A DNA stretch of 22,288 nt from positions 1-22,288 of the IMG/VR virus record IMGVR_UViG_3300029258_004438; one strand, 5' to 3'. Shown here piece by piece: positions 2,133-19,857 of this stretch. Under the pieces are notes generated by a model. The model was not told the DNA's origin. It saw only the letters and a list, made by a program, of their open reading frames with translations, and made no database searches. The stretch comes from a virus. How positions within the stretch are numbered: the first letter of the stretch is position 1; each line of letters opens with the position of its first letter. Made by a program: the position numbers and the translations under genes.

Positions 2133-2720
2133 ATGAAGACTCCGCACAGCAAAAGGACCGAAGAGGGAACCAAGGCGGAGGAGCGCGTGCTCAAGAGGCT
2201 GCGCCTCAAGGGCATCGACGCCAAGCTGGCGCCGCCGGGCGCGGCATGGGACATCGAGGCCGAGGGCAAGAAGATCGAGGTCAAGGCCGCGGTGCGCACC
2301 AAGCATGAGGGCAGCGACGGCCACCCCATCGACGGCGTGGTGTTCTCGAACATCAGTCGCGGTGCGGATCTGTACCACTTCATCGAGATGGATCAGGACC
2401 GTGATCGTGAGCTCACGTCTTGGACGCTCACCGGCAAAGAAGTGCCGGGTGTGACGCTGACGGTGACCGAGAAGAAGCGACGTGAGCTCCCAATGCGGTC
2501 TCTCAACGAGGTCCTCTCCAAGACGGCGGCGCCCACCTTTCTCGATTCGGTCGTGACGAACATGGTCGTAGGCAAGTCGTTCGACTTGTTGTCGCTTGGC
2601 GAGCCTAGCCTTGCCGGCAAGATCGTAGCTATACAGTCTGTCCAAAGCGCCCGAAAGGCGCGAGAGGACCACGATGACCGAATGAACCAGCGTGCTCGTC
2701 GTGTCAAGTTCAGGATGTGA
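2133..2720 (+). CDS. Probable PD-(D/E)XK superfamily nuclease
   Basis: Probable nuclease of the restriction-endonuclease-like fold. The signature is D40 (AAWDIEAEG) followed by E49-V50-K51 (KKIEVKAAV), with an upstream helix carrying E16/E17 (GTKAEERVLKRLR). This order and spacing, helix then D then ExK, is that of Holliday-junction-resolvase-like, Mrr-like and VRR-type nucleases. Residues beyond about 110 match nothing I recognise and end in a basic tail (RMNQRARRVKFRM). It starts three bases after the second exonuclease gene and is followed by an HU-like gene, so it lies in a DNA-processing group. Possible roles are resolving branched DNA before packaging or degrading host DNA. The fold assignment rests on motif spacing only. 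Confidence 0.65.
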   Translation: MKTPHSKRTEEGTKAEERVLKRLRLKGIDAKLAPPGAAWDIEAEGKKIEVKAAVRTKHEGSDGHPIDGVVFSNISRGADLYHFIEMDQDRDRELTSWTLTGKEVPGVTLTVTEKKRRELPMRSLNEVLSKTAAPTFLDSVVTNMVVGKSFDLLSLGEPSLAGKIVAIQSVQSARKAREDHDDRMNQRARRVKFRM

Positions 2721-2728
2721 GGCTAACT

Positions 2729-3070
2729 ATGTCTGTACCCAAAGAGGTAGAGGACAACATCGACGAGTCTGCGGCTCTTGCTCGCAGGCAGTTGATACAC
2801 GAGATCTACCATCACATGGGTGGCGAGGTGAAGCAGGCCCATATCGACATGGTTTTGAGCGCCTTTTGTGACGTGTCGAAAAGGGCTCTTGCGCAAGGTA
2901 AGATCATCAGGCTCGTGAACTTCGTGACGATCAGGCCTGAGATCCTCAAGCCCAGGGTGTCCAACATCCCAAATGGGGTGGGTGAGGTCCTGAACGGCAG
3001 GAGGCTCAAGGTCAGGTTCGTGCCGAGTGTTGGTTTGAGGAAGCTACTCAAGGGAGTCAGGGATGGATAA
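2729..3070 (+). CDS. HU/IHF-like DNA-bending protein
   Basis: A 113-residue protein of the HU/IHF type, which binds and bends double-stranded DNA as a dimer. The sequence shows the HU order: N-terminal helices (RRQLIHEIYHHMGG, then AHIDMVLSAFCDVSKRAL), a GKIIRLVNFVTIRPE strand region equivalent to the HU 'G..V.L..FG.F' segment, a DNA-arm region with the N-P-x-G analogue IPNGVGE, and the closing strand and helix KVRFVPSVGLRKLLKG. About 18 extra residues precede the fold. ATG at 2729 has TGAGG at 2718-2722 at good spacing; an alternative GTG at 2717 would add four residues. Phage HU-like proteins act in replication, recombination, packaging or late transcription; which applies here is not visible. 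Confidence 0.85.
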   Translation: MSVPKEVEDNIDESAALARRQLIHEIYHHMGGEVKQAHIDMVLSAFCDVSKRALAQGKIIRLVNFVTIRPEILKPRVSNIPNGVGEVLNGRRLKVRFVPSVGLRKLLKGVRDG

Positions 3071-3227: not shown

Positions 3228-3555
3228 GGCATCGGCATACGAAGCCACGTCTGGCGCGTGGGTGTTGCTCGGCTACTTCGACCCCGAGTTGCCGCCCGGC
3301 GAGGTGGAGAAGGAGCTGGCCCCGTTCGCGACGAAGGTATGCGGAGAGGACGCGGCAGTTCGCTGCGAGGTACGATACATTCGACGGGGACTGATCTTTG
3401 AGTCCGTCTTCGAGGTGAGTTACTACTTTGCAAATGGGCTGACCTACGACGACCTTTTGTACCTCTTCACGCACGGAGACCATGACCATGAGCGAGATCC
3501 CCTTCTACAAGACGGCGAACCTGCAGAGCTGGGACGTCATCGATCATCAGGATGA
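3190..3555 (+). CDS. Hypothetical phage protein, 121 aa
   Basis: Unknown protein beginning MKHVRPMTYRVLEAS, with an alternating strand/helix look and a hydrophobic central part (EVSYYFANGLTYDDLLYLF). ATG at 3190 has GAGAG at 3177-3181 upstream; ATG at 3208 and ATG at 3133 are in-frame alternatives. The last 22 or so residues, after TYDDLLYLFTHGDHD, overlap the next gene by 68 bases and read like an out-of-frame shadow of it (ERDPLLQDGEPAELGRH), so the functional protein probably ends near the overlap. No known motif was seen. Expression is likely coupled to the genes on both sides. Confidence 0.6.
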   Translation: MKHVRPMTYRVLEASAYEATSGAWVLLGYFDPELPPGEVEKELAPFATKVCGEDAAVRCEVRYIRRGLIFESVFEVSYYFANGLTYDDLLYLFTHGDHDHERDPLLQDGEPAELGRHRSSG

Positions 3556-4432
3556 CCCTGGGTTCTTCTGGCAGGACAAGATCGCGGCGTACTGGCCCGA
3601 TGCGATCGAGCCCCCGAGCGTTGGCGGCCGCGGCGAGGCCACGGGCCACGTGGCGCAGTTCCTCCACGAGGGGCAAGTGAAGGTTGCCTACCCCACGGGC
3701 ACGCCCTCTGATGCCCTCGCTTCGTCGATGTACTTCTTGGCGCAGGCCTCTCGCGGCGTGTTCGAGAAGCAGGCTCTGCTCGACATCGCCGGGGCGCTCA
3801 AGAGTGCACGCGACGCGTGGGGTGTCCGCATGCCGGACGGTTACGTCACGAGCTTGGCGAGCGACATGGGCAAGGTGGCGAGCGTCGAGCACGACCCAGC
3901 TCACCGGGCAGATGCGTTCGTTAAGAGGGCGTCTGAGTGGTCTCCGGCGAAGCGGCTCGAGAAGAGCCTTGAGATCTCTGCGGAGCTTGAGGCGCACCAG
4001 AAGGATGCGTCTCACATGCCGTACATGGATTGCGGACTCAACCCCGAGTGGGAGCGCCACATCGAAAAGCGTCGTCGCATTCTCGCCCTCGCCCAGAACG
4101 CCCCCATGTACCTCTCCCGCCTGGAGAAGATCCGTGGCGGCATCTTGAACATGGACGACTTCGACGCCGTTGCGAAGACAGCCTCGCTGCTCGAGCAGCT
4201 TGACGTTGACTCTGGCATCCGTAATGAGTGGGGTCGTACGATTCTCGACCCGGTCGACACTCTGCTCGCGCCCTTCGTCAAGGAGGCCAAGTGGGCGAAG
4301 GCCGACCTCTCGAAGCTCGACGAATACTTCGATTCGGATACGCTCGACCAGATCAAGGGCGACCCCGACGCGGTGATCCCGACCCTCCCGATGCGGCAGC
4401 GCAAGCTCGTCGAGGAGATCCTGGGTAGCTGA
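3488..4432 (+). CDS. Hypothetical protein, probable virion-related, 314 aa
   Basis: Unknown, mainly helical protein. I chose ATG at 3488 because GGAG at 3475-3478 is nine bases upstream; ATG at 3482 would add two residues but is only three bases from that site. The N-terminus reads MSEIPFYKTANLQSW, with a K-T-A triplet at residues 8-10 comparable to the K-V-A leader of small genes further along. Similar triplets recur inside (GKVASVE, AKTASLLE). The body contains EKQALLDIAGALKSARDAW and many charged helices; no membrane segment or catalytic motif is visible. It lies two genes before the portal, so a head or neck structural role is plausible by position only. Confidence 0.75.
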   Translation: MSEIPFYKTANLQSWDVIDHQDDPGFFWQDKIAAYWPDAIEPPSVGGRGEATGHVAQFLHEGQVKVAYPTGTPSDALASSMYFLAQASRGVFEKQALLDIAGALKSARDAWGVRMPDGYVTSLASDMGKVASVEHDPAHRADAFVKRASEWSPAKRLEKSLEISAELEAHQKDASHMPYMDCGLNPEWERHIEKRRRILALAQNAPMYLSRLEKIRGGILNMDDFDAVAKTASLLEQLDVDSGIRNEWGRTILDPVDTLLAPFVKEAKWAKADLSKLDEYFDSDTLDQIKGDPDAVIPTLPMRQRKLVEEILGS

Positions 4433-4449
4433 ACACACTGAGGCATGAA

Positions 4450-5694
4450 ATGAGCGACAACATCTTCGGGGAGTTTATGCCCCGCCCGCCTGGTATGAGC
4501 CAAGGTGTCAGCATCACGCACGGCCCAGCGGCGCACGGCTCGTTTCTGCCTGATTCGCCCTATCAGGACGATGATGTGCTCACTTGGGATGATGAGCCCA
4601 AACATGCTGAGCTCGAGCGGGCGTTCGACAACGACCTGCCCGATGATGGTGTGATCGAGTCGGATGGCTTCGACGATGAGGGTTGGTTCGAGGAGGATAA
4701 GCAGAAGGTCGCCGAGGACCTTGGTATCCTCGGTGGCCAAATGCCGAACATCGGCAAGACCATCGACCTCCGCCCTCCGGGCCCCTACGTTGGTCCATCT
4801 ACCAACCTAGGGGCGCATGGTGGCCCGGATGAGGCCGGCGTGGTTCAGGAGGTGTCGCCGAGGCCTGGCCAAAAGGGCCTCAAGCTCAAGCTATCCGTGG
4901 GTGGGGTCAAAAGGCGCATCAAGACGATCCCAACCGAAGAGGTCGGGTCGATGCAGTCCGCCCTCAAGGACTCGATGGCGGCGCAGAAAGCGACCCACGA
5001 TCGCAACATTAGCTTGCCTACGAAGTCGACGTTCATGGAGGACGCGGGCCTTGAGGAGCTTCAAGACAAGCGCGCGTCTGCGTCGGATGATCCGATGCTA
5101 GATGTTGACACGCACCCCGTGAGGCGTGCCCTGGAGGCCGTCAGGCTCTGGGGGCGGGAGTGGTTCGACTGGGAGCCCGAGGTGATCAGGGCAGAGATCG
5201 AGTCGAGGTATGGCGAGGAGCCTGAGCCCGTCGTGTTGCATCAGCTTTTGTCGGACCGCGTGCTGAAGACGACGCCTCGCTTCTTCGATGATCCGATGGT
5301 TTTTGAGAAGGTGTGCGCTGCCTATTCGGGGCGCGAGCCCAACTGGTCGTTGGTCCAGCAGTCCGCCCCCCACGAGATGGCAGCAGTCGTCGCCATCGTG
5401 CGCAAGTACTACGAGCCCGAGATGTCCTTCTCTTCGGAGGTCGCGGCCTATGTCGCAGCGTCTTGCCTGACGTCGGGGCTTGCCTGTCTGCCCGAGGAGC
5501 TTACGTTCTGTAATGGGCCCTTTTCGGCGAGGCTTCTTCGCATGGACCCGAAGGTTGCTTCGTTTCAAAACGATGTTCGTGAGTGCATGTCGTCAGGTAC
5601 TCTGGACTGGCCGCAGAGCGTCCTTGCTCAGGTTGAGCGGCTCATGCTGATCAGGGCGCACGTGTCGGAGATGACCTCCGAGGGAGATGATTGA
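4450..5694 (+). CDS. Hypothetical protein next to portal, 414 aa
   Basis: Two-part protein. The first 200 or so residues are acidic and proline/glycine-rich and probably disordered (for example DDDVLTWDDEPKHAELE and FDDEGWFEEDKQK). Residues from about 220 to the end look folded and helical, starting with RRALEAVRLWGREWFDWEPE (tryptophans at 234, 238 and 241), and contain several cysteines. ATG at 4450 is preceded by TGAGG at 4439-4443. The gene ends on the portal gene's start (tgATG, one-base overlap), which ties its expression to the portal. Candidates include a scaffold, adaptor or other head-assembly factor; none is supported by a motif. Confidence 0.78.
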   Translation: MSDNIFGEFMPRPPGMSQGVSITHGPAAHGSFLPDSPYQDDDVLTWDDEPKHAELERAFDNDLPDDGVIESDGFDDEGWFEEDKQKVAEDLGILGGQMPNIGKTIDLRPPGPYVGPSTNLGAHGGPDEAGVVQEVSPRPGQKGLKLKLSVGGVKRRIKTIPTEEVGSMQSALKDSMAAQKATHDRNISLPTKSTFMEDAGLEELQDKRASASDDPMLDVDTHPVRRALEAVRLWGREWFDWEPEVIRAEIESRYGEEPEPVVLHQLLSDRVLKTTPRFFDDPMVFEKVCAAYSGREPNWSLVQQSAPHEMAAVVAIVRKYYEPEMSFSSEVAAYVAASCLTSGLACLPEELTFCNGPFSARLLRMDPKVASFQNDVRECMSSGTLDWPQSVLAQVERLMLIRAHVSEMTSEGDD

Positions 5695-7844
5695 TGCTAG
5701 ACGGATCGAAGCTCGGGCTCAGGAGGCACTCCTACCCCGACCCCTTCCTCGATATTGCCTCCACTAGGCTCCCGAAGGACCGTCGCAAGATGCTCCAGAT
5801 GTGCTTCGTCTTTGCGACGCAGCACCCCCAGATTGCACCGATCGTCAAGAAGCTCGCTCGCTACCCGATCACGCACATCAACGTCGACGCGAAGACTCCG
5901 GCTGCGGTGGAGCACTGGAAGGATTTGTTCGAGAACACCCTCGACATCTACCATCACATCGAGGAGATGGGTCTCGACTACTTCGGCTACGGCAATGCGT
6001 TCTACGTGGTGCACAGGCCGTTCATCAGGTTCTACAAGTGTCAGAACTGTGGTCATGACAACCGCGCCGGCAAGGTCCACTACACGATCAGGGGCAACCA
6101 GTTCCACGGTGTTTGCTCATCGTGCAAGACCCACGCTGTGCTCAAGCCTCGTGACGAACTGCTCAGGCGCGCGAAGGGCATGAGGCTCGTCCGCCTGATG
6201 CCGCAGAACATGGCGATCAAGACGGCGGCTATGTCTGGCTGGGTTTGCTACGACTACGAGCCTTCCAAGGACATCAAGCAGGCCGTCGCGCGCGGAGGCA
6301 AGCCACACCGCGACATCATCGACGCTACGCCGTGGACCTATGTGCAAGCCGCCTTGCAAAAAAAGAAGGTCCGGTTCGGCAAGAACAACCTCCTCCACCT
6401 CAAGGAGCCGTCACTCAGCCAGCCCATGTCCCTTGGCTGGGGCGACCCGATCACGCTCGCGGGCTTGAAGGATGCCTACCTGAACCAGATCTTCAAGAAG
6501 GCTGACGAGTCCGCCGCCAACGAGAGGTCGTTGCCGGTGCGATTCGTGTACCCGGCCGCGACGAGCCAAGATCCCATGCGTACGATTTCGCTGCGTAGGT
6601 TCAACCTCTTCATGGAGCGTGCGCTGCACGGCTGGCGTCGCGACAAGAACTCCGTGATCACGAGCCCCTTCCCCGTGGCCGTGAGCGAGGTTGGTGGCGA
6701 TGCGGCGAGGTTCAACACGGCGCAGCAGCGACAGCTTGCGATCAAGGAGATCATCGGTTCCACGGGCATGCCCGAAGGCTTCCTCTCCGACTCGATGTCT
6801 TGGTCGGGCGGCTCTGTCCAGCTCAGGATGCTCGAGAACGCGCTCATGCCGTACGCTCGCGCCGTGGCGAAGGTGCTCGATTTCGTGCGTCGTCAGGTCA
6901 TGTCTTATGCGGACGTGCCAGCCTGTGAGTCTGTCAAGATGAAGCCGTTCCGCATGTCGGATGACCTTCAGATGATGCAGCTCATGGTCAGCCTCGCCCA
7001 GATGAACGTGGTGAGCTGGGCGGAGGTGCTCGAACGATTCGACCTCAGCTGGGACGAGGAGCACGACAAGATCAAGCGCGAGGCCAGGTCCATCTCCGAG
7101 GTGGAGGGTATCCGCCAAGTTGGTCAGACCATCGCGATGCTCAAGTCCACGGGCGCTCAGGTCCAAGCCGAGTCCGTGGGGTCTGGATACCAGACGTTGC
7201 TTGAGGACCAGAACAACACGGCCGCAGCCGAGGAGCAGTCGCTTCGCGAGGGCGGCATGTCTGCGAACGAGGCCAAGGTCCAGATCGAGGAGCAGAAAGC
7301 CGAAGCGGCGCAAGAGCCCTCCACCGAAGAGGTGCTGGATAAGGCTAGGGCCCAAAAGTACGAGGCGGAGGCCAACCAGAAGGGCATTCATGCCGAGGTG
7401 ACGGAAAACCAGTCTGAGGACATCGCGACGCCTAGCTTTATCGACGACATGGCGCGTCAGCTGCAGGAGCTTCCAAGAGAGGAGGCCGAGGCGATTCTCG
7501 TCGATGTCTCGAAGGAGAGCCCGGACATTGCGGCGCAGATCGAGGCGCGCCTTGAGGAGCTCGATGGGCGCTCCGGCGTGGGCAATGCTCTTGAGGAAGA
7601 GGCTAGCGAACTCGACCAGCTCCGCGAAGAGTCGGCCAGCCCCGAGGACATGGCCAACAAGTTGCTGATGATGCCCGCCGCGAAACGTGAGAGGGTGTTC
7701 GGTATGTTGATTCAGGAGGATCAGTTGCTGGCCATGAGGGTTAGTAAGTTCCTGTCGCAAATGGGTGGCTCGGGGGGCTCGAAGGTCAAGCCTGTCATTG
7801 ACATGAGGCCTTCGCCCCAGCAAAAGCCACCCAGAAGGAGTTGA
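5694..7844 (+). CDS. Portal protein with cysteine knuckle and acidic helical tail
   Basis: Probable portal protein, the dodecameric ring at the head vertex through which DNA is packaged and ejected. Portal-like features are EEMGLDYFGYGNAFYVVHRP near residue 90, the region after residue 300 with EIIGSTGMPEGFLSDSMS followed by SVQLRMLENALMPYARAVAK, and the overall order of an alpha/beta wing followed by a helical stem and crown. Two features are unusual. One is a four-cysteine knuckle inserted in the wing (C116, C119, C141, C144). The other is a long acidic, coiled-coil-like C-terminal extension from about residue 490 to 700. The start is ATG at 5694 with GAGGGAGA just upstream; a TTG one codon earlier is less likely. 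At 716 residues it is long for a portal. Confidence 0.75.
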   Translation: MLDGSKLGLRRHSYPDPFLDIASTRLPKDRRKMLQMCFVFATQHPQIAPIVKKLARYPITHINVDAKTPAAVEHWKDLFENTLDIYHHIEEMGLDYFGYGNAFYVVHRPFIRFYKCQNCGHDNRAGKVHYTIRGNQFHGVCSSCKTHAVLKPRDELLRRAKGMRLVRLMPQNMAIKTAAMSGWVCYDYEPSKDIKQAVARGGKPHRDIIDATPWTYVQAALQKKKVRFGKNNLLHLKEPSLSQPMSLGWGDPITLAGLKDAYLNQIFKKADESAANERSLPVRFVYPAATSQDPMRTISLRRFNLFMERALHGWRRDKNSVITSPFPVAVSEVGGDAARFNTAQQRQLAIKEIIGSTGMPEGFLSDSMSWSGGSVQLRMLENALMPYARAVAKVLDFVRRQVMSYADVPACESVKMKPFRMSDDLQMMQLMVSLAQMNVVSWAEVLERFDLSWDEEHDKIKREARSISEVEGIRQVGQTIAMLKSTGAQVQAESVGSGYQTLLEDQNNTAAAEEQSLREGGMSANEAKVQIEEQKAEAAQEPSTEEVLDKARAQKYEAEANQKGIHAEVTENQSEDIATPSFIDDMARQLQELPREEAEAILVDVSKESPDIAAQIEARLEELDGRSGVGNALEEEASELDQLREESASPEDMANKLLMMPAAKRERVFGMLIQEDQLLAMRVSKFLSQMGGSGGSKVKPVIDMRPSPQQKPPRRS

Positions 7845-7848
7845 AAGG

Positions 7849-7989
7849 TTGAGAAGGTGGCGATTTGAGCTCAGGGGTGGCTTGGTCTGCCTTGCGATCA
7901 GGGTTGGGTCCAGATGGTACAGTTGCGTGTTGTCGGACGATGACTGCAAGGAGATGCGGAACGAAATCGCGAGGTTGAGTAGGGTATGA
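7849..7989 (+). CDS. Small hypothetical protein, 46 aa
   Basis: Short open frame filling the gap between portal and the next gene. It starts at TTG 7849, with GAAGGAG at 7834-7840 eight bases upstream, and its TGA (7987-7989) overlaps the next gene's ATG. It begins MRRWRFELRGGLVCLAIRVG and ends NEIARLSRV, with three cysteines. The strong ribosome site and ATGA junction argue that it is translated. Family unknown. Confidence 0.45.
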   Translation: MRRWRFELRGGLVCLAIRVGSRWYSCVLSDDDCKEMRNEIARLSRV

Positions 7990-8330
7990 TCGGGAAGCTA
8001 CCGCCGCGCGGGTCCGTGCCCAAGAGCATCGAGGCCCAGATTCAGGCCAAGGTGTTCGCAAAGGCAGATATTCACTACCACTCTCGTCTTTTTCGCATCC
8101 CTTTGGGGTCGGCGAGCAACGACGATCGGACCGAGTACCAAGATCTGATGTTGTTGTTGCTCGATGTCGAGCGTGACGACATTTGCATGCCCGCCAACTT
8201 CAGCCCCCTGAGGTCAATCGATTCGCGCGAGGGCGTCGCCTACGTGTACGTTGAGTGGGTGGTGCGCATTGATGATGAGGACGCGCCCCGTAGGCAAGCG
8301 TCCGTCGCGCAGGGCAATTACACGTTCTAA
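7986..8330 (+). CDS. Hypothetical phage protein, 114 aa
   Basis: Small protein of unknown family, beginning MIGKLPPRGSVPKSIEAQIQ and ending QGNYTF. It appears to combine helices and beta-strands, with strand-like stretches SREGVAYVYVEWVVRID and LMLLLLDVERDDICM. ATG at 7986 overlaps the preceding small gene by four bases and has a purine-rich GAGTAGGG just before it. It ends 12 bases before the RNA polymerase gene. Position between portal and polymerase suggests a virion-assembly or polymerase-associated role, but nothing in the sequence shows it. Confidence 0.72.
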   Translation: MIGKLPPRGSVPKSIEAQIQAKVFAKADIHYHSRLFRIPLGSASNDDRTEYQDLMLLLLDVERDDICMPANFSPLRSIDSREGVAYVYVEWVVRIDDEDAPRRQASVAQGNYTF

Positions 8331-8342
8331 GAGAGATGAAGC

Positions 8343-11300
8343 ATGTCAAGGCCCCGTCAAGCGCACGAGGATCTCAAGCGTAGGCTGTTCGACTACTTCA
8401 AGCGCAAGCTCGGGGTCACCGTCAAGGGCACCTCGCTCAAGGTTAACTCGATCGACGTGACCAAAGGCGGTAAGGGCAGCGCGGTGACGCGCCAGAAGCG
8501 CGCCAAAAGCCTTGGCATGAGCTACACCAGCCGCGTGCGAGCGAACATCTCACTCGAGCGGGGGGGCAAGGTCATCGACAGGGCCGACGTCAACCTCGCT
8601 GATCTGCCCGAAGTCACGAGCCGCGGAACCTACGTGGTCAAGGGGTCGGAGTATTCGTTCCCGATCCAGAAGAGGCTGCTCCCGGGCGTCTACGTGCGTG
8701 GCCACAACGATGGTGGGTACTCGGCCTGGTTCAATACCGGAGAGGGGCGCTCGTTCAAGATCGTGATCAAGCCGTCTTCGGACGTCATTCAGGTTCAGCT
8801 CGGCGGCAAGCATATCAGCTTGTATGCGTTGCTGACGGGCTTTGGCATGCAGCCAGAGGCCCTCAGGCGCGCACTTGGGGCCGACTCGTTCCAGGCGCAG
8901 CTCTCGGGCCGTGGAGCGAATGATTCCAAGGGTGCGATCGAGGCGCTTTACGAGTTCTTGCGCTACGAGTCCGACCCGCCCGCCGAAAAGGGCGTCGCCG
9001 GCAGAGTGGCGTGGATCAAGTCCTACTTCGACGACGACTCGTCGTTCGACCCCGGGAACATGGATCGTCTCCTCGGCCAGCCGACAGACAAGATCTCCCC
9101 GAAGCTCATGCTGATTGCGTCCAAGAGGCTGCTCGAGGTCAAGCGCGGAGACGTCGAGGAGCACGACACCGACAACCTGAACCACGCTGGATTCTTCGAC
9201 ATCGCGGACTTCATGATCGAGAGGCTCGAGTCGCGACAGATGCGGTCGAAGATCACGCGTCACCTGAACCGTCGACTTCCCAAGGCTCAAAAGGTCACAG
9301 ACGTTGTCGGCAAGCATCTCTTCTCGTCGGGCGTGGAGTCCACGTTCACGCAGACGGCCCTTGCTCGTGTGCCCAAGCAGAACAACCCCATGGACGTGAT
9401 GTCGTCTCACACCGAGATTACGACGAGGGGCGAAGGCGGCATCGCGAACGACCACGCTGTCACGAGGGCCACGAGGGCGCTCAACCCGTCTCACATGGGA
9501 TTCATCGATCCTGTTCACACGCCCGAAGGCACCAACATCGGCACTACGCTGCACCTTGCCGTGGGCGTGACCAAGAAGGGCCGGGACCTCGTCAGGTCTG
9601 TGTGGGACGTCAAGAAGAAGAAAATCGTCGAGGTCGACCACCGCGAGTTCTACGCCTCGGCCGTGGCGTTCTCCGAGTTTTGGGACCCGAAGGCCAAGCG
9701 CCTCAAGGGGCGCAAGATCAAAGTCTCGCGGATGGGCAAGATCGACATGGTCGACCCCTCCCAGGTCAAGTACGCGATCAGGCGTGCGACCGATCTGTTC
9801 GGCGTGAACACGCTCGGGGCCCCGTTCCTGTCACACAACAACGGTACGCGTGGCATGACGGCTGCGAAGATGCAGTCCCAAGCCAAGCCCTTGAAGTACC
9901 GTGAGGAGCCACTCGTGCAGGCGGCCCTTCACGAGAACACGGACGAGACGATCGAAGACATCATGGGTCGTGGATCCCTGCCGCGGTCGCCCGTCAGCGG
10001 GACGGTCTTTTCCGTGTCTGAGGATGAGGTCGTCATCAAAGACAAGGATGGCAAGAAGCACGAGGTTGAGGTCCCGCACAAGTTTTGGCTCAACGAGTCG
10101 AACTACGACTCGGTAGAGGTCACGGTCAAGAAGGGCGACAAGGTCAAGAAGGACCAAGTTCTCGGCGAGTCGAACTACACCAAGGGCGGCAAGCTCGCGC
10201 TCGGCGTCAACCTTCGGACCGCCTACATCCCGTACAAGGGCTACAACCACGAGGACGGCGTCGTCATCTCCGAGGAGGGCTCGAGGCTCCTCACTTCGAT
10301 GCATGCGCACCAACGTATCGTCAGCATGCGGGAGGGGGAGATTCTCGACCGTGGCAAGTACACTGCGCAGTTCCCCATGTCCTACAACCGCGACGTGATC
10401 GACAAGCTCGACGAGCGTGGCGTCATCAAGGTGGGCCAGAAGATCAAGCGCGGTGAGCCTTTGGTCGTCAAGATGCGTCGCATCGAGCAGGACACGGTGT
10501 CGAAAAGGCTCGCGTCGGTCTCGAGGTCCCTGATGAGCGACTTCAGGGACGCCTCTGTCGAGTGGGACAAGTCGGAGGAGGGCGTCATCGAGGAGGTGAC
10601 GTACCGAAACGATGAGGTCCTGATCGTCATTGCCACCGAGGAGAAGGCAAAGGTGGGTGACAAGCTCGTCGGGCGCTATGGCAACAAGGGTACGATCACC
10701 AAGATCGTCCCCAACTCCGAGATGCCTCGCAACCCAGACGGGGAGGTGATGCACCTGCTCATGAACCCCGACACGGTGCCGGGGCGCATGAACCTCGGGC
10801 AGGTCATGGAGACGACGGCGTCCAAGATCGCGCTCAAGGACAAGAAGCCCTTCGTGGCGAAGCCTTTCGGTACCGATCACCGAGACAAGATCCTCAAGGA
10901 GCTCAAGAAGAGAGGCCTGAAGGACTCCGGCTCGTTGATCGACCCTGAGACTGGCACCGAGATCGAGAACGTCCTGACGGGCCACCACTACACCCTCAAG
11001 CTCGAGCACCAGGTTTCGAAGAAGATGAGCTCGCGTGGTGCTGGCATCGGCGAGAGCTATGGCCTTGACGGCCAGCCCTCCGCGGGTGGGGGGCGTGCCG
11101 TGGGTCTGAACGTCATGTACGCGCTGCTTTCGCACGGCGCGCACGCGAACCTCAAGGAGATGTACGGCTTCAAGGGAGATCGCAACTTCGAGGCATGGCG
11201 CTCCATCGAGAATGGGACGTACATGCCTGCGCCCAAGGTGCCCGCCTCGAGCCAGAAATTCGTCGATATGCTGCGCGGCATGGGCGTCAACCTGAGCGAG

Positions 11301-14300
11301 GACGACAAGGGCATCGTCAAGATGACCCCGTTCCTCGACAAGGACGTGCGCAAGATCTCGAACGGCGAGGTCAAGGACGCGAAGGCTTTGCGCGCGAAGG
11401 ACATCAAGGAGGAGAAGGGCGGCATCTTCGATCTCAACGTCACGGGTGGCCTCGCGGGCGATCGTTGGTCCCACATTGAGCTCGCCGAGCCCATGCCGCA
11501 CCCCACCTTTGAGGATTCCATCCTCGCGGTGACCGGCATGAAGCGTTCGGACTTCTCAGCGATCATGAAAGGCACGAAGGGCGTGCTGGGCGGAGAGGTC
11601 GTGCCGGGCGGCACGAGCGGAGCAAAGTTTGGCGGCAAGGCAATCAAGTCGATGCTCGACAAGATCGACGTCGACAAGCGTATCGACGAGATCGCGAAGG
11701 AGTCGAAGGGGGCGCGCGGCACGAAGCTGAACAAGCTTCACAAGGAGGCGCGCATTCTGATCAACTTCCGAGAGCAGGGCGTCAAGCTTGGTGAGATGGT
11801 CGTGTCGACGATGCCCATCATCCCTCCTGCGATGCGACCTGTCTTCGACATGCCCGGTGGTGACCTGCACATCAGCGACATCAACGAGCACTACCGAGAG
11901 ACGATCCTCGCCAACAACCAGCTCAAGCAGATCTCGAAGCGTCCGGGCCTCGTGGACGAGGCCCAGAAGATGAGGTCGAAGCTCTACGACGGATTGTCGG
12001 GCGTGACGGGCCTTTCGCAAGGGCTCGTCGACAAGCCGGACGTCAAGGGCATCGCCGCCACAATCGCTGGCAGCACGCCGAAGCGTGGCTACTTCCAGCG
12101 CAAACTCCTCCGTCGCCGGCAGGAGAACTCCGGCACGGGCGTGATCGAGCCGGACCCCAAGCTCTCCATGGATGAGGTGGGCATCCCCGAGGAGATGGCC
12201 TGGGACATCTTTGGCACCTTCGGGCGTAAGGAGCTCATTCGATCGGGCATGACCCCGTTGACGGCGAAGAAGGAGTGGGAAGACCGCTCGACCATGGCGA
12301 GAGAGGCGCTCGAGCGTGCGATGAAGGAGCGGCACGTGCTGCTCAACCGCGCGCCGACGCTGCACAAGTTCTCGATCATGGCGTTCAAGCCCAAGCTCGT
12401 CCCCGGGTACGCCGTCAGGACGCCCGTTGAGGTACTGGGTGGTCTCAACGCCGACTTTGACGGCGATACGGCAGGCATCCACGTTCCTGTGAGTGATGAG
12501 GCGAATCGCGAGGCGGAGGCCATGCTGCCTTCGAACAACGCGTTCGCCCCGGGCACGAAGCGTAAGAAGCTCATGCCTCAGCTCACGCGTGAGTTTTCGC
12601 TGGGCGTCTACAAGCTGACGCGGCTTGGGCGCACCACGTCCAAGTCCTACATCGACCCGCGCGCTGCGATCAGGGATGCTGAAGCTCGCAAGATCAAGTG
12701 GACCGATATCATCTCGGTCAAGATCGACGGCAGGCGCGAACGCACGACGGCCGGCAAGGTCATCGTCAACATGGGCTTGCCCCGAGAGGTTCGGGACTTC
12801 CAGGCGACGTTCGACAAGAAGGGCATTGAGCGTGTCTTGAAGAGGCTCGAGAAGAAGAGCCCCAAGGCGTTCAGGGACGCGACGGACCACTTCAAGCACC
12901 TCGGTCGCAAGTACGCCTACCTTTCGGGCTCGAGCTTCATCCTGTCCGACCTCAAGGTCCTCGACTCCAAGCGTCGCCAGCTCTACATGGCGGCGGACAA
13001 AAAGGCCGACGCCGTGCGTCGCAACCGCAAGCTCTCCGCGGAGGAGAAGGACAAGAGGATCATCGAGATCTACGCCGCCGTGGACTCGAAGGTCGTCGGC
13101 GCGCTCGGGTCGATGGGGAAGAACTCTGGCGGCGAGACGAACAACCTATCGGACATGATCGCTTCGGGCTACTCGAAGCCTGGCGTCCACCAGCTCAAGC
13201 AGATGGTTGGGTCCGTCGGCCTGATGCTCGATCACAACCAAAAGGTCATGCCCGTGCCCGTGCGCGGGAACTACTCGGAGGGCCTGAGCTCGAGCGAGTA
13301 CTTCCAGCACATGTATGCCCAGCGAAAGGGCATGATCGACAAGTCGCAGTCCGTCTCGGGGCCGGGCGCCCTGACGAAGCAGCTCAGCAACCCGGCGACG
13401 ACGCTCAAGGTGACGATGAGCGATTGCGGCACCCGCCTTGGCAGGGTCGAGAAGGCCGACGAGCACGTCGTCGACCGCGTGCTCGCCAAGGACGTGGGCA
13501 AGTTCAAGCGTGGTGACGTCATCACAGGCGAGATGCTCACGAAGCTCAAGGGCCAGATGATCACGGTCCGCTCTCCTCTGTCTTGCGAGGCTACGGGGGG
13601 CGTGTGCGCGAAGTGCTTTGGCTACGACGAGACGGGTAACTACCCGGCGATCGGCAAGCTCATCGGCCTGTCCGAAACGCAAGCCATCACTGAGCGTTCG
13701 ATCCAGCTCCCGATGAAAGCCTTCCACTCGGGCGGCGTCGCGACAGCCGACAGTGGCCTTGCGAGCGCGTTCGACCGTGCTGTGGACATCCTGAATATGC
13801 CCGACAACGTCAAGGGCAAGGCCACACTCGCCACGGTGACGGGCCGCGTCGACTCCATCCGCAAGACAGGCCTTGGCGGCTTCGTCGTGATGATCGCAGG
13901 CAAGCAGCATCGCGTGGGCGAGAAGCTCAAGATGCTGGTCAAGGTTGGCGACCAGGTAAAGAAGGGCGACAAGATCTCGAGCGGCATCGTCAAGCCTCAG
14001 GAGCTTCTCAAGCTCAGGGGCATGGCTGCGGTGCAGCGTCAGGTGCGAGATGACCTCCACGCGACGTACCAGTCGGCCGGCGTTAACCTCGACCGTCGCA
14101 CGTTCGAGATGCCTGTGAAGATGCTCACCGAGATGTGTCGGATCACGGACCCGGGCGACAGCAACTACATCGCTGGGGATCTGGAGACCCGGCCGAAAAT
14201 CGTCTCTTGGAACCGCTCGAACCCCGGGCGCCAGCAGATCAAGTTCACCGAAGAGCTTCCGGGCGCCAATCAGCTCCCCTACCAGACGCAGGACTGGGCA

Positions 14301-14450
14301 AGGAGAATGGGTCTCGGGCATATTAAGAGGACGATCAAGGAGGGCGTCGGCGCGGGCTACGCTTCAGATCGCAACGATTCACCCTTCTCGGGCTTGGGCC
14401 TTGGTGCCGGCGCCAAGGTCGAGCCGCCCAGCAACTGGAGAAAAAAATGA
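8343..14450 (+). CDS. Single-chain RNA polymerase, beta fused to beta-prime
   Basis: DNA-directed RNA polymerase with both large catalytic subunits in one 2035-residue chain. Beta part (about 1-990): GYNHEDG at 633-639, active-site lysines K774 and K782 in GDKLVGRYGNKG, and GRMNLGQ near 815. Beta-prime part (about 990-2035): GEVKD near 1008, HIELAEP at 1044, clamp helices from about 1179, catalytic NADFDGD at 1369-1375 (D1371, D1373, D1375), bridge helix from G1647, zinc site C1695/C1748/C1755/C1758 and trigger loop QLPMKAFHSGG with M1791 and H1795. The junction has no linker: the GINIE-like end of beta runs directly into the start of beta-prime. The beta-prime N-terminal zinc domain is missing. 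It is shorter than the bacterial pair (about 2750 in E. coli). ATG at 8343 follows GAGAG at 8331-8335. No alpha, omega or sigma is nearby, so promoter recognition must come from elsewhere. Confidence 0.97.
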   Translation: MSRPRQAHEDLKRRLFDYFKRKLGVTVKGTSLKVNSIDVTKGGKGSAVTRQKRAKSLGMSYTSRVRANISLERGGKVIDRADVNLADLPEVTSRGTYVVKGSEYSFPIQKRLLPGVYVRGHNDGGYSAWFNTGEGRSFKIVIKPSSDVIQVQLGGKHISLYALLTGFGMQPEALRRALGADSFQAQLSGRGANDSKGAIEALYEFLRYESDPPAEKGVAGRVAWIKSYFDDDSSFDPGNMDRLLGQPTDKISPKLMLIASKRLLEVKRGDVEEHDTDNLNHAGFFDIADFMIERLESRQMRSKITRHLNRRLPKAQKVTDVVGKHLFSSGVESTFTQTALARVPKQNNPMDVMSSHTEITTRGEGGIANDHAVTRATRALNPSHMGFIDPVHTPEGTNIGTTLHLAVGVTKKGRDLVRSVWDVKKKKIVEVDHREFYASAVAFSEFWDPKAKRLKGRKIKVSRMGKIDMVDPSQVKYAIRRATDLFGVNTLGAPFLSHNNGTRGMTAAKMQSQAKPLKYREEPLVQAALHENTDETIEDIMGRGSLPRSPVSGTVFSVSEDEVVIKDKDGKKHEVEVPHKFWLNESNYDSVEVTVKKGDKVKKDQVLGESNYTKGGKLALGVNLRTAYIPYKGYNHEDGVVISEEGSRLLTSMHAHQRIVSMREGEILDRGKYTAQFPMSYNRDVIDKLDERGVIKVGQKIKRGEPLVVKMRRIEQDTVSKRLASVSRSLMSDFRDASVEWDKSEEGVIEEVTYRNDEVLIVIATEEKAKVGDKLVGRYGNKGTITKIVPNSEMPRNPDGEVMHLLMNPDTVPGRMNLGQVMETTASKIALKDKKPFVAKPFGTDHRDKILKELKKRGLKDSGSLIDPETGTEIENVLTGHHYTLKLEHQVSKKMSSRGAGIGESYGLDGQPSAGGGRAVGLNVMYALLSHGAHANLKEMYGFKGDRNFEAWRSIENGTYMPAPKVPASSQKFVDMLRGMGVNLSEDDKGIVKMTPFLDKDVRKISNGEVKDAKALRAKDIKEEKGGIFDLNVTGGLAGDRWSHIELAEPMPHPTFEDSILAVTGMKRSDFSAIMKGTKGVLGGEVVPGGTSGAKFGGKAIKSMLDKIDVDKRIDEIAKESKGARGTKLNKLHKEARILINFREQGVKLGEMVVSTMPIIPPAMRPVFDMPGGDLHISDINEHYRETILANNQLKQISKRPGLVDEAQKMRSKLYDGLSGVTGLSQGLVDKPDVKGIAATIAGSTPKRGYFQRKLLRRRQENSGTGVIEPDPKLSMDEVGIPEEMAWDIFGTFGRKELIRSGMTPLTAKKEWEDRSTMAREALERAMKERHVLLNRAPTLHKFSIMAFKPKLVPGYAVRTPVEVLGGLNADFDGDTAGIHVPVSDEANREAEAMLPSNNAFAPGTKRKKLMPQLTREFSLGVYKLTRLGRTTSKSYIDPRAAIRDAEARKIKWTDIISVKIDGRRERTTAGKVIVNMGLPREVRDFQATFDKKGIERVLKRLEKKSPKAFRDATDHFKHLGRKYAYLSGSSFILSDLKVLDSKRRQLYMAADKKADAVRRNRKLSAEEKDKRIIEIYAAVDSKVVGALGSMGKNSGGETNNLSDMIASGYSKPGVHQLKQMVGSVGLMLDHNQKVMPVPVRGNYSEGLSSSEYFQHMYAQRKGMIDKSQSVSGPGALTKQLSNPATTLKVTMSDCGTRLGRVEKADEHVVDRVLAKDVGKFKRGDVITGEMLTKLKGQMITVRSPLSCEATGGVCAKCFGYDETGNYPAIGKLIGLSETQAITERSIQLPMKAFHSGGVATADSGLASAFDRAVDILNMPDNVKGKATLATVTGRVDSIRKTGLGGFVVMIAGKQHRVGEKLKMLVKVGDQVKKGDKISSGIVKPQELLKLRGMAAVQRQVRDDLHATYQSAGVNLDRRTFEMPVKMLTEMCRITDPGDSNYIAGDLETRPKIVSWNRSNPGRQQIKFTEELPGANQLPYQTQDWARRMGLGHIKRTIKEGVGAGYASDRNDSPFSGLGLGAGAKVEPPSNWRKK

Positions 14451-16510: not shown

Positions 16511-16868
16511 GCCTCACGAGCGTATCTCCGGCTCGGGACGCAACGAGCCTGGTAGCGCCAAGGGCTCAAAGGGCGGGATCAAGCTGGATCTCTCCACGGA
16601 CAAGTCGCTGCGTGGCAAGGTGGAGGAGCACAACAACGCCACGGGGGACAAGGACAAGAAGGTTGACATCGGAGCGCTCAAGGCCGTCTACCGCCGCGGA
16701 GCGGGCGCGTTCAGCTCGAGCCACAGGCCCGGCATGAACCGCAACCAGTGGTCGATGGGTCGGGTTAATGCATTCCTGCACCTGCTCAGGACCGGCTCCC
16801 CCAAGAACCCCAAGTACGTCAACGACAACGACTTGCTGCCTGCGAGCCACCCGAGGTCGACCAAATGA
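16464..16868 (+). CDS. Leader-bearing protein with a domain common in aquatic viruses, 134 aa
   Basis: Begins with the shared leader MNAMIKVASDPKTP. I set the start at ATG 16464 because GAGGAG at 16451-16456 lies seven bases before it; the frame extends six codons upstream to a TTG without support. After a flexible basic stretch come VDIGALKAVYRRGAGAFSSS, then HRPGMNRNQWSMGRVNAFLH and PKYVNDNDLLPASHP. I recall this arrangement (LKxVYxRGxxAxxxxHRPGxxxxQWAxxRVNxF) as a short uncharacterised domain found in many cyanophage, marine phage and giant-virus proteins. Its function is not known to me. The C-terminus overlaps the next leader gene by four bases. Confidence 0.78.
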   Translation: MNAMIKVASDPKTPAEPHERISGSGRNEPGSAKGSKGGIKLDLSTDKSLRGKVEEHNNATGDKDKKVDIGALKAVYRRGAGAFSSSHRPGMNRNQWSMGRVNAFLHLLRTGSPKNPKYVNDNDLLPASHPRSTK

Positions 16869-17179
16869 ACGCCATGATCAAGGTGGCTAGGCTGTCGACC
16901 GCCCGTGAGCGCGAGCGCTCGAGGATGTACCGCCAGCAGAACAAAGCCAAGGTCCGACTGGCGCGCAAAAAAAGAGAGCGGCTGCAGCGCTCCGGGGCGA
17001 AGCTCAAGAAGTCACGCATCGGCTCTGCGGCTGGCGGGTATAGCTTCGTCATGGCGTCACCTCAGACGTCGGGCTCGAGCTCGGGTGGGGTGTCTCCCCC
17101 TCGGATGCAGGCAACCGGTCGTCAGCAATTTCCCGTCGAAGTGGCATCTCGCCATACTGTGAGGAAGCTTGGGCGTTAG
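16865..17179 (+). CDS. Very basic leader-bearing protein, 104 aa
   Basis: Starts MNAMIKVARLSTARERERSR, with the shared leader nearly identical to that of the preceding gene. Residues 10-55 are dense in arginine and lysine (for example QNKAKVRLARKKRERLQRSG) and predicted helical, a good candidate for DNA binding. The second half is serine, glycine and proline-rich and probably disordered. ATG at 16865 overlaps the upstream stop (ATGA) and has GAGG at 16853-16856. It ends inside the start region of the large terminase. Position before terL is where a small terminase subunit often lies, but no terminase-small motif is visible; an internal, DNA-associated head protein fits equally well. Confidence 0.7.
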   Translation: MNAMIKVARLSTARERERSRMYRQQNKAKVRLARKKRERLQRSGAKLKKSRIGSAAGGYSFVMASPQTSGSSSGGVSPPRMQATGRQQFPVEVASRHTVRKLGR

Positions 17180-18701
17180 GCTGTCAACGTGGATGGCGAA
17201 TGCCATCTGGATCGATGAGAACACTCGTTTCAACTACGAGGGGAGGGGATTTGCTCCCGGGATGCACGACGATAGCGCGACGCGCCGGGTATGGTTGTGT
17301 TCACGCCAGGTCGGGAAGAGCCAAGGCGGCGCCGGCGAGGCGGTCACGATCCCGGTGATCCACCCGGGGCACCGTGTGCTCTACGTCGCGCCGTATGAGG
17401 ATCAGGTTCGCAAGTACAGCTACGACAAGATCGGCCCAACCATCAAGTCGTCAGCGATCATCATGAGCCAGATAGAGGGTGCGGACAACGTCTACGAGAA
17501 GGAGTTCCGAGGGGGCGGGCGCCTGTACATGAAGTGGGCGAGGAACTCGGCGGACGGCATTCGCGGCATTTCGTCGATCAACTTCATCCACTACGACGAG
17601 ATTCAGGACCTGAACCTCGACCTCATCGAGCCCGTCATCGACAACGTGTGCTTTGCCGTCGAGCACTCGAGGAAGCTGCTGTCAGGCACGCCGAAGTCGT
17701 TTGCCAACGACGCCCACCGTGCGTGGGTCAAGAGCGATCAGCGCGAGTTTTTGGTAGCTTGCAGGCACCACAGCCCCGTCAAGTGGATCAACCTCGGGAT
17801 CAGAAACATCGGTAAGCACGGCCCGGTGTGCCACCACTGCGGCTCGCCGCTCGACGTCTTGGATGGCAGGTGGGTGGCCATGAACCCGAAGTCCAGGGTG
17901 GCCGGCTTCCATGTATCTCAGCTGCACGCCAAGATCAGCCACATCAACCAGAACAAGTGGGACGAGTTGCTCTACAAGTTCGAAAACTACCCGGAGGATA
18001 AGCTCCTGAACGAGGTGTTCGGGCTGTCCGCCGACTCCGCAGAGCAGCCCATTACCCAGGCGATGATCGCGCAGGCCTGTGACTCAAGCAGGCCCATGTC
18101 GCATGAGTACCTTGCTCAGCACCGCACCGCACCCTGCTACGCAGGCATCGACTGGGGCCATGGCGAGGCGGCAACCGCGATTGCGGTTTGCCAGCTTTAC
18201 AAGGGGAAGACGCGTTACCTGTACTTCCAGAAGTGGGAGGGGGCCCAGTGCAACCCCTCGGTTTGCATTCCTGAGATACTCAACGTGCTCAGGCGCTTTG
18301 AGGTGACCAAGGCGCACTGCGACTTCGGCGGAGGATTCGGCCTGAACGAGGATATCTCGCTCGCCTTCGGCGTCGACAAGGTGACCACGAACATGTGGGC
18401 AAGCCCGAAGTCGAAGGAGGTGTCATGGTCACAGAAGCACGGTCAGGCTCCGCGACTTACGGCGAACAAGTCGGTGGCTTTTTCGTCGTGGATCCGCGAC
18501 CTCAGAAGGGGACGTATCGACTTCCCCGCGTACGGCTCGATTCACCCGACATTTACGCAGGACATCGAAAACGTCAGGACCGAGCTCAGGGGCGACGACA
18601 CGCTCGTCTACGTCAAGGCTGGCAACGAAGACACCCTCGAGGCGGCGATCTACGCCCGGATCATTGCGTACATGAATCAGGAGTACGACCCCTTTAGCTG
18701 A
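17169..18701 (+). CDS. terL: Terminase large subunit (packaging ATPase and nuclease)
   Basis: Motor that pumps DNA into the prohead and cuts it. ATPase domain: Walker A variant SRQVGKS at residues 45-51 (K50), Walker B FIHYDE ending D143-E144, coupling motif SGTP at 172-175. A cysteine/histidine knuckle follows (C198-R-H-H and C221-H-H-C224-G). The RNase H-like nuclease domain has AGIDWG with D328, HCDFGG with D385, and a late acid at D488 (NEDTLEAAIYAR). Length of 510 is normal. The start is uncertain: TTG at 17169 sits four bases after GAGG at 17161-17164 and overlaps the previous gene by 11 bases; ATG at 17193 is an alternative with a poor ribosome site. The reading frame meets a minus-strand gene tail to tail, with stops overlapping. 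Confidence 0.93.
   Translation: MGVRLSTWMANAIWIDENTRFNYEGRGFAPGMHDDSATRRVWLCSRQVGKSQGGAGEAVTIPVIHPGHRVLYVAPYEDQVRKYSYDKIGPTIKSSAIIMSQIEGADNVYEKEFRGGGRLYMKWARNSADGIRGISSINFIHYDEIQDLNLDLIEPVIDNVCFAVEHSRKLLSGTPKSFANDAHRAWVKSDQREFLVACRHHSPVKWINLGIRNIGKHGPVCHHCGSPLDVLDGRWVAMNPKSRVAGFHVSQLHAKISHINQNKWDELLYKFENYPEDKLLNEVFGLSADSAEQPITQAMIAQACDSSRPMSHEYLAQHRTAPCYAGIDWGHGEAATAIAVCQLYKGKTRYLYFQKWEGAQCNPSVCIPEILNVLRRFEVTKAHCDFGGGFGLNEDISLAFGVDKVTTNMWASPKSKEVSWSQKHGQAPRLTANKSVAFSSWIRDLRRGRIDFPAYGSIHPTFTQDIENVRTELRGDDTLVYVKAGNEDTLEAAIYARIIAYMNQEYDPFS
18694..18701. other. Convergent stop-codon overlap
   Basis: The eight bases TTAGCTGA hold TGA of the plus-strand terminase and, on the other strand, TAA of the minus-strand 62-residue gene. 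The AGCT core is self-complementary, so both proteins end in D-P-F-S. There is no room for an intergenic terminator and I see no stem-loop plus T run here. Confidence 0.85.
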
Positions 18702-18882: not shown

Positions 18883-19606
18883 CGTCTTCTTCCGGGTCAT
18901 ATCCAGCCACCATGTCTTGGGGTATTGCCGTCGAGTCCATGTACTCGATCTCAACGTCGAATGCCTGCGGGAGCTTTTTGGCCGCGCCGGATGACGTAGC
19001 CGTCTTCTGGAGTGAGTTGTAGATGGACGTCGCGGCCCCTTGCAGCTTCACCGAGAGATCGATGCCCGCTATGCCCAGCTCGCGGATGACCTTCTCCGAC
19101 TCGAAGAAGTTGCGCGCGAACATGTGACGCATCGCAGCGTCCATGTCGAGCGACTCCGCATACCCAGCCTCGAAGGCAACATACGCCTCCCTGAAGCGCC
19201 CCTGCATGGAGGGCTTCTTCGGCATCAGGTGAAGCTGCTTGCTTTGCTGGAGGTGCTGGGCGATCTGGACGCCCGTCATGGAGTCCACGTCCCAGTACAG
19301 GGCGCGGTACGCGTCGATCTCCTCTTCGCTGTAGAAGGCCTTGAAGCGGTGGGCGATCGAGTCCTTGATCAGGCTCAGTGGCGCCCTCTCATAGAGGAGC
19401 TGCTCTACCGTGGCCCTGCATTCAGGGTTCCCCCTGATGAAGCGCGTCGCCTCGTTCGGCCTCCACCCCCCCAGCGCGGCCATTGGATCATCATGCTCTT
19501 CGCGTAGGTGTGCCGCGTATTCGGCGAAATCCGCAGGGGCCTCCCCGGGGTTCTCGAGCGCGAACATCGTCTTGTATCGCCAAGCTGGGTCTACAGGAGG
19601 GTTCAA
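18815..19606 (-). CDS. Hypothetical helical protein, 263 aa (possible small terminase-like)
   Basis: Mostly helical protein with ALGGWRPNEATRFIRGNPEC, YERAPLSLIKDSIAHRF and EIDAYRALYWDVDSMT. The first third resembles a helix-turn-helix recognition unit of the kind used by small terminase subunits or replication regulators, but this is weak. A K-T-A-T motif (LQKTATSSGAAKK) follows the central helices, and the C-terminus is acidic (YDPEEDDGSALAPGE). The start is probably TTG at 19606, which overlaps the previous gene's TGA as TTGA and has AAGG nine bases upstream; ATG a few codons later (MFALENPGE) is the alternative. The same frame is open far upstream (to 20185), but that portion lies under the larger minus-strand gene and is a shadow. 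Confidence 0.7.
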   Translation of the reverse strand: MNPPVDPAWRYKTMFALENPGEAPADFAEYAAHLREEHDDPMAALGGWRPNEATRFIRGNPECRATVEQLLYERAPLSLIKDSIAHRFKAFYSEEEIDAYRALYWDVDSMTGVQIAQHLQQSKQLHLMPKKPSMQGRFREAYVAFEAGYAESLDMDAAMRHMFARNFFESEKVIRELGIAGIDLSVKLQGAATSIYNSLQKTATSSGAAKKLPQAFDVEIEYMDSTAIPQDMVAGYDPEEDDGSALAPGEYEAIKQRLGNTEP

Positions 19607-19857
19607 ACCATGCCTTGGGGTTGCTGGTTCGTTGGCATCATGGGCGTCGAGGGCGGGTTCTTGTTGAACGGGTTCGCCATCTTCATCTTGAGCTTCACAT
19701 TGGTCGCCGTGTTGGTCATGTCCGGCGTGTGTGCATTCGGATTCAGGGACGGCGCCATCGATCCGACCGGCCGAGGGCGCATGGCTTGCGCCCCGCTGCT
19801 TGGCGGCTTGGTGTTGGGCTGGCCCATGATCTGGGCCAGCTTGATCATCGCGTTCAC
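19603..19857 (-). CDS. Leader-bearing Pro/Asn-rich small protein, 84 aa
   Basis: Starts MNAMIKLAQIMGQPNTKPPS from a GTG at 19857 that overlaps the upstream gene's TGA (GTGA). The first eight residues are the leader seen on five plus-strand small proteins. The rest is proline, asparagine, methionine and threonine-rich, with MRPRPVGSMAPSLNPNAHTP and NVKLKMKMANPFNKNPPSTP, and is probably disordered. No catalytic motif. The recurrence of the leader on the opposite strand, with different codons, is the best evidence that this short frame is translated. Function unknown; it probably shares the destination of the other leader proteins. Confidence 0.68.
   Translation of the reverse strand: MNAMIKLAQIMGQPNTKPPSSGAQAMRPRPVGSMAPSLNPNAHTPDMTNTATNVKLKMKMANPFNKNPPSTPMMPTNQQPQGMV

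Follow-up and report, generated by a model that had tools for sequence, protein, structure and literature searches.

A single-chain RNA polymerase of cellular type encoded among the structural genes of a phage

Can a phage encode the whole catalytic core of a cellular-type RNA polymerase (RNAP) as one protein, and what could such an enzyme be used for? The question is raised by a 22,288-nt stretch of viral DNA, positions 1 to 22,288 of the IMG/VR record IMGVR_UViG_3300029258_004438 (hereafter the window), in which an earlier note, made from the letters alone, had recognized a gene joining the β and β' subunits. As described below, the two subunits indeed share one frame. Since a cultured relative carries the enzyme in its virus particles, this phage is likely to deliver a transcription apparatus of its own to the cell it infects.

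One frame for β and β'

The gene and its main parts are as follows.

8343..14450, + strand: single-chain RNAP, β fused to β', 2,035 aa (open frame, Pfam, five other contigs with the full fusion)
8343..11309, + strand: β half, residues 1 to ~989 (Pfam Rpb2_3 and Rpb2_6; structure model of residues 1-1190)
11280..11342, + strand: β/β' junction, residues 980-1000, MGVNLSEDDKGIVKMTPFLDK, without linker (alignments to Salmonella, Desulfoscipio, and relatives)

The frame runs uninterrupted from ATG to TGA over 2,035 codons and encodes β followed by β'. Pfam models of β match the first part of the product (Rpb2_3, residues 345-407; Rpb2_6, residues 609-915, E 6e-57), and the β' models Rpb1_1, Rpb1_2, and Rpb1_5 match the same chain further downstream. 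The C-terminal end of β, MLRGMGVNLSEDD, reaches approximately residue 989 (nt ~11309) and is directly followed by the start of β', GIVKMTPFLDKDVRKISNGE. In the order of the junction sequence, MLRGMGVNLSEDD, which aligns with the enterobacterial β C-terminus, precedes KGIVKMTPFLDKDVRKISNGE, which aligns with the β' N-terminal region, and no linker is found in alignments to RpoB and RpoC of Salmonella and Desulfoscipio and to the relatives. The open frame, Pfam, and the alignments thus bear out what had been proposed, i.e., one frame in which the end of β leads directly into β', and the presence of both subunits at full length in a continuous frame is confirmed.

The window sits, at 99.99% identity, inside a longer contig of 43.9 kb that contains the same frame. 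The full-length fusion is also found in five IMG/VR contigs with 49-55% identity (L011, L012, L013, L084, and L086). Codon positions 1 and 2 are more conserved than position 3, both within each half and over the junction, a signal of purifying selection. A search for close relatives with the single protein retrieved only the near-identical contig; alignment-based searches retrieved more.

Catalytic anatomy and structure models

The anatomy of the enzyme was drawn from alignment to the Salmonella and Desulfoscipio subunits. The following elements were placed in this way.

10662..10688, + strand: β catalytic lysines K774 and K782 (GDK...GNK), aligned to enterobacterial K1065 and K1073 and invariant in the fused clade
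11442..11471, + strand: site of the missing β' N-terminal zinc-binding domain, residues 1034-1043
12447..12467, + strand: β' active-site motif NADFDGD, residues 1369-1375
13278..13403, + strand: bridge helix region, residues ~1646-1687
13584..13616, + strand: second zinc site, C1748/C1755/C1758, with the fourth cysteine, C1695, at ~13425
13713..13736, + strand: trigger-loop core MKAFHSGG, residues 1791-1798

Both catalytic barrels, the DxDGD motif, and the two β lysines are present, matching the features of cellular-type β/β' RNAPs. Also kept in the alignment are the trigger-loop residues M1791, K1792, and H1795, as well as β R503 and R815, which correspond to E. coli R678 and R1106, respectively. 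The earlier description of all catalytic elements as intact therefore stands for the catalytic residues, the bridge helix, the trigger loop, and the second zinc site, but not for the β' N-terminal zinc-binding domain: no counterpart of the E. coli stretch with C70/C72/C85/C88 is found in any of the three aligned architectures of the family (types A, B, and C, see below). In addition, positions of the rifampicin pocket are altered (D516 to K345, H526 to S355, R529 to E358, and S531 to T360), which predicts resistance to rifampicin.

The structure model of residues 1-1190 (mean predicted local distance difference test score, pLDDT, of 73; predicted template modeling score, pTM, of 0.55) matches bacterial β chains with template modeling (TM) scores of 0.59-0.64 by query length. 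That of residues 880-2035 has low global confidence (pTM 0.40), and its match to β' is mainly one of local similarity. A fold search with the β' half gave significant E-values but TM scores of ~0.25, and so was not used as evidence of global placement; in a viral fold library, other β'-like proteins matched this half, again with low TM scores.

Two PHROG families listed as of unknown function, phrog_25354 and phrog_24349, match the β' and β halves, respectively (E 1e-109 and 3e-70). In a related contig (L071, RNAP open reading frame (ORF) at 3516-8288), an intein-like insert of ~150 aa, beginning with C and ending in ...SGN before S, separates the counterparts of K774 and K782.

A family in one, two, or three pieces

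Relatives were collected by tblastn against phage records and by a profile search of viral contigs, which gave 67 loci. The cultured relatives found by tblastn are Salmonella phage Arash and Vibrio phages D69, D148, and D181, which belong to the split relatives of the fused RNAPs, phages of ~125-190 kb. They are of the same family as the window by both RNAP and portal, and the Arash terminase matches as well. Three architectures are seen when the ORFs of the relatives are mapped onto the window protein. Type A, that of the window, is one protein of ~2,035 aa. Type B consists of a ~1,525-aa protein containing β and the part of β' up to and including the active-site barrel (to query ~1404), plus a ~605-610-aa β' C-terminal protein (from ~1468). 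In type C, a ~1,140-aa piece spans the β/β' boundary, reaching as far as query ~1081, and is followed by pieces of ~390 and ~615 aa. This mapping places the breaks inside β' and not at the β/β' boundary, which is fused in all three types. The corresponding region of the window is the following.

12552..12746, + strand: β' break region of types B and C, residues ~1404-1468, unbroken here (ORF map of relatives)

A few members are additionally broken in β near query 497 (L005, 2911-8479; L049, 6497-12012), and the first gene of Vibrio phage D181 is likewise split, its parts flanking a homing endonuclease gene.

Arash and the D69-type phages share with the window the order portal, small gene, RNAP, as well as β and β' in one frame, the lack of the β' N-terminal zinc-binding domain, sigma-like genes, and the failure to find α. 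They differ from it by the break in β' after the active-site barrel (~1404), which yields proteins of ~1,525 and ~605 aa with ~30% identity to the window. The fusion at their junction is unrecognized in annotation: Arash Gp206 (L003, 14968-19545) is annotated as subunit β in GenBank, yet it holds the β' active-site barrel, and Gp216 is the C-terminal part of β' only. A fused enzyme does lie within a structural module, as had been noticed, but it is less isolated than it seemed, with cultured relatives carrying a junction-fused enzyme in two pieces.

Virion presence, sigma factors, and α in the relatives

Among the rows listed for the mass spectrometry of Arash virions, Gp206 (β and the N-terminal part of β') is the most detected protein with 3,516 spectra, the major capsid protein having fewer (1,333); Gp216 ranks fifth (1,210), the sigma-like Gp10 has 467, and Gp196 does not appear in these rows (PMC10585845). 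The late or virion-gene position attributed to the window gene agrees with this proteome, in which its syntenic homolog comes first.

Homologs of Gp10 are found in all 14 related records of at least 127 kb that were searched, and the fused-clade contig L099, 124.8 kb long, carries a divergent one (E 4e-16; sigma factor family phrog_351, E 9e-21). The search of the 43.9 kb contig containing the window, itself a fragment, found no Gp10-type sigma. A standard sigma region 2 was detected in 16 of 18 records, sigma region 4 (PF04545) gave one weak, sub-threshold match in D69, and a second sigma gene, of the Arash Gp196 type, is common in the relatives. The Pfam search for α (PF01000) found none in any of 20 related records. 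Since the window covers just 22 kb of a larger genome, the lack of sigma and α within it tells little. Thirteen records contain one β' active-site domain each. With one RNAP per record, the same single-chain core may also serve later in infection, perhaps with the second sigma.

These data are best accounted for by a virion-carried, α-free single-chain RNAP core that would start early transcription with a phage sigma, a proposal to which a probability of roughly 0.6 is given. The gene would encode the whole catalytic core of a cellular-type, two-barrel RNAP as one chain, with the C-terminus of β covalently joined to the N-terminus of β' in place of the contact that cells build with the help of the α dimer and ω. 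This joint would do part of the job of α in cells, and the core would be able to form without α. The chain would be made late, with the head genes, and packaged together with a sigma-like factor of the Arash Gp10 type; the enzyme, probably rifampicin-resistant, would then enter the cell with the DNA and transcribe the first phage genes independently of the host RNAP. A fuller version, in which the packaged core dispenses with both α and ω and uses its own phage sigma, and in which the β/β' boundary was erased in a common ancestor and breaks inside β' came later, is more tentative, at somewhat under even odds.

Several points weigh against the virion-carried core. For the phage of the window itself, we infer packaging, activity, α-independence, and sigma use, and packaging in particular rests on Arash, a distant relative with ~30% identity and an enzyme in two pieces. 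As the longest contig of the fused clade, of 124.8 kb, is possibly not a complete genome, α could be missed; α might also have diverged beyond the reach of Pfam, or come from the host. Furthermore, given the pTM of 0.40 of the β' model, the predicted geometry of the junction is not reliable. The self-sufficiency suggested by the earlier note is not established either, a sigma-like factor being encoded elsewhere in the relatives.

The main rival follows from a remark of the Arash authors that plentiful enzymes might end up in purified particles as carry-over, and their preparation contained many metabolic enzymes (PMC10585845). The RNAP would then be a non-virion enzyme, comparable to that of phiKZ and AR9, made during infection for middle or late genes, with the host RNAP in charge of early ones. 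The place of the gene in the late structural module and the frequent second sigma gene are in line with this explanation. However, a Gp206 signal exceeding that of the major capsid protein and the fifth rank of Gp216, in the rows listed, are above usual carry-over, and one RNAP per record leaves no separate virion enzyme; this rival is thus unlikely, although it deserves more weight than those that follow.

It is less probable still that the fused chain works as a hybrid that requires host α, and perhaps ω or a host sigma, and hence is not self-sufficient. No phage α was found and, with its strong β' matches and its β fold, the enzyme is nearer to bacterial RNAPs than those of the phiKZ type are, both of which suit a hybrid. 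On the other hand, the RNAPs of phiKZ and AR9 function without α (PMC7598289), the relatives have genes for sigma-like factors, including one that is abundant in Arash virions, and here the fusion itself keeps β and β' together.

Phylogeny

A concatenated tree of 47 taxa and 1,160 columns (LG+C20, quick search) included 24 bacteria of several phyla, and neither archaea nor Helicobacter. Type A forms one clade and types A, B, and C together, with the cultured phages Arash and D69 among them, form another, both with full support in the Shimodaira-Hasegawa-like approximate likelihood ratio test and apart from the 24 bacteria. Both clades are also recovered in the separate β and β' trees, and in a β' tree including Rhizobium and Vibrio Va2 phage proteins; in the β and β' trees, which have no archaeal outgroup, the bacteria lie on one side of one branch. 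This clade support across the β, β', and concatenated trees indicates that the phage RNAPs form a coherent family rather than a recent capture. The phage lineage claimed for the enzyme is upheld by these trees. As for the separate deep branch looked for, the separate clade is recovered, but not its depth: approximately unbiased tests of where the family attaches among bacterial phyla gave little information for the most part, and constrained trees without outgroup that unite the whole family with Bacillota, Actinomycetota, or a Lactobacillales pair were not rejected (p 0.20-0.77), nor were smaller bacterial pairs. The one tree that could be rejected places the fused clade by itself with Bacillota (p 3e-5).

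These unrejected attachments leave some room for a fairly recent acquisition of a fused rpoBC from bacteria, and natural rpoB-rpoC fusions are present in Helicobacteraceae and Wolbachia (PMC7483510). Such an origin is nonetheless very improbable: the best cellular β' matches reach no more than 28-31% identity and come from several phyla, the window clusters with phages whose portal and terminase are homologous to its own, the fused clade alone is rejected as a partner of Bacillota, and the β' N-terminal zinc domain is missing across the phage family, with the limit that Helicobacter sequences were left out of the tree. Finally, a misassembly that joined two genes, or a pseudogene in decay, for which no support was found, the input being a metagenomic fragment, can be set aside as very unlikely given the same full fusion in the near-identical 43.9 kb contig and in five divergent ones, and the codon constraint over the junction.

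Three sequences labelled as phage (L007, L102, and L103; MT836236, OR844998, and OR846602) group with bacterial rpoB/rpoC; they are probably bacterial DNA and were treated as such.

Comparison with known systems

The fused RpoBC of Helicobacter and Wolbachia works with α, ω, and a cellular sigma. It is a natural in-frame β-β' fusion like that of the window, but a cellular gene (PMC7483510), whereas the window has a phage gene without the β' N-terminal zinc-binding domain, and distant from the genes of the sampled bacteria.

Among phages, the metagenomic tailed mReC phages, many of them from IMG/VR, encode β and β' that are recognized by cellular models and are distinct from cellular clades (Weinheimer & Aylward 2020, PMC7481178). 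The window is likewise a tailed-phage contig with recognizable β and β' and the NADxDGD motif. In its main text, the mReC study describes capsids of PF07068 and no β-β' fusion (PMC7481178). PF07068 has no match in the eleven records of the window family that were searched, those of the fused clade being fragments, and was found in phages of the two-subunit type such as Carin-5, GN1, and RHph_TM; the window was therefore not filed as mReC.

The phage-encoded RNAPs of phiKZ and AR9 are α-free, with one form in the virion, and their β' is split after the double-psi β-barrel (PMC7598289), which resembles types B and C. They differ by having β and β' in at least four proteins, two RNAP sets, and no sigma (PMC7598289, PMC7824862), versus one chain and one set here, with sigma-like factors encoded by the relatives. 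The RNAPs of the crAss-like phage phi14:2 (gp66) and of P23-45 hold both barrels in one chain and set a precedent for a virion RNAP; their clade is not readily recognized by cellular β/β' models (PMC7481178, PMC10770324), in contrast to the window protein, which matches them strongly.

Phage multisubunit RNAPs and cellular rpoBC fusions were therefore known already; what is new is a full cellular-type β-β' core as one phage chain. No report of such a fusion in a phage was found in the literature searched, with most subscription papers and preprints outside its coverage. A review of jumbo-phage RNAPs considers unknown how their β/β'-like subunits hold together without α and ω (PMC7598289). In the Arash lineage, a covalent joint links β to β' in all the architectures seen, so that this question of subunit cohesion becomes directly testable. 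The family also offers a natural series of the same enzyme in one, two, and three pieces, useful for learning where an RNAP can be broken and still work. The predictions of rifampicin-resistant early transcription, an α-free core, and a packaged sigma can be tested now, given a cultured relative and its virion proteomics, and a cellular-type RNAP in one gene would be a handy research enzyme.

Gene neighborhood

The genes around the RNAP that have counterparts in the relatives are as follows.

5691..7844, + strand: portal protein, 717 aa, upstream neighbor of the RNAP and homolog of Arash portal Gp204 (E 3e-57; 2e-53 in a second search)
7986..8330, + strand: small ORF of 114 aa between portal and RNAP; ORF of similar size at the equivalent place in Arash and D69; weak match to the L084 ORF there (E 4e-5)
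16865..17179, + strand: small ORF preceding terL, conserved within the fused clade; homologs in L011, L013, and L084, and inside the L086 RNAP frame
17169..18701, + strand: terminase large subunit, 510 aa (phrog_675, E 1e-51; PF05876), homolog of the Arash terminase

The RNAP thus lies between portal and terminase, as first read, with several small ORFs separating it from the latter. The portal precedes the RNAP in types A, B, and C. Homologs of both flanking genes surround it in the window, L013, L084, and L086, and are seen on the portal side only in L012 and on the terminase side only in L011. When compared with 50,697 phage records, the window portal matches only Arash, D69, D148, and D181. 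The terminase model PF03237 scores 13.6 bits in the window contig, below its cut-off, and above it in some relatives. No tRNA or Rfam element was found in the window.

The RNAP frame of L086 (9944-16591) extends well over 100 residues beyond the usual end and includes the homolog of the window ORF at 16865. This ORF and the small neighboring ones starting at 14447, 14913, 15701, and 16464 (+ strand), together with a GTG-start ORF at 19603-19857 (- strand), have a common N-terminal motif, M-N-[GA]-M-[IV]-K-[VIL]-A, ahead of unrelated bodies. The motif, absent from the relatives checked, is possibly a packaging or targeting leader. At the other end of the window, two adjacent genes for DnaQ-like exonucleases (PF00929; 622-1500 and 1482-2126, + strand) are followed by an HU-like gene (2717-3067).

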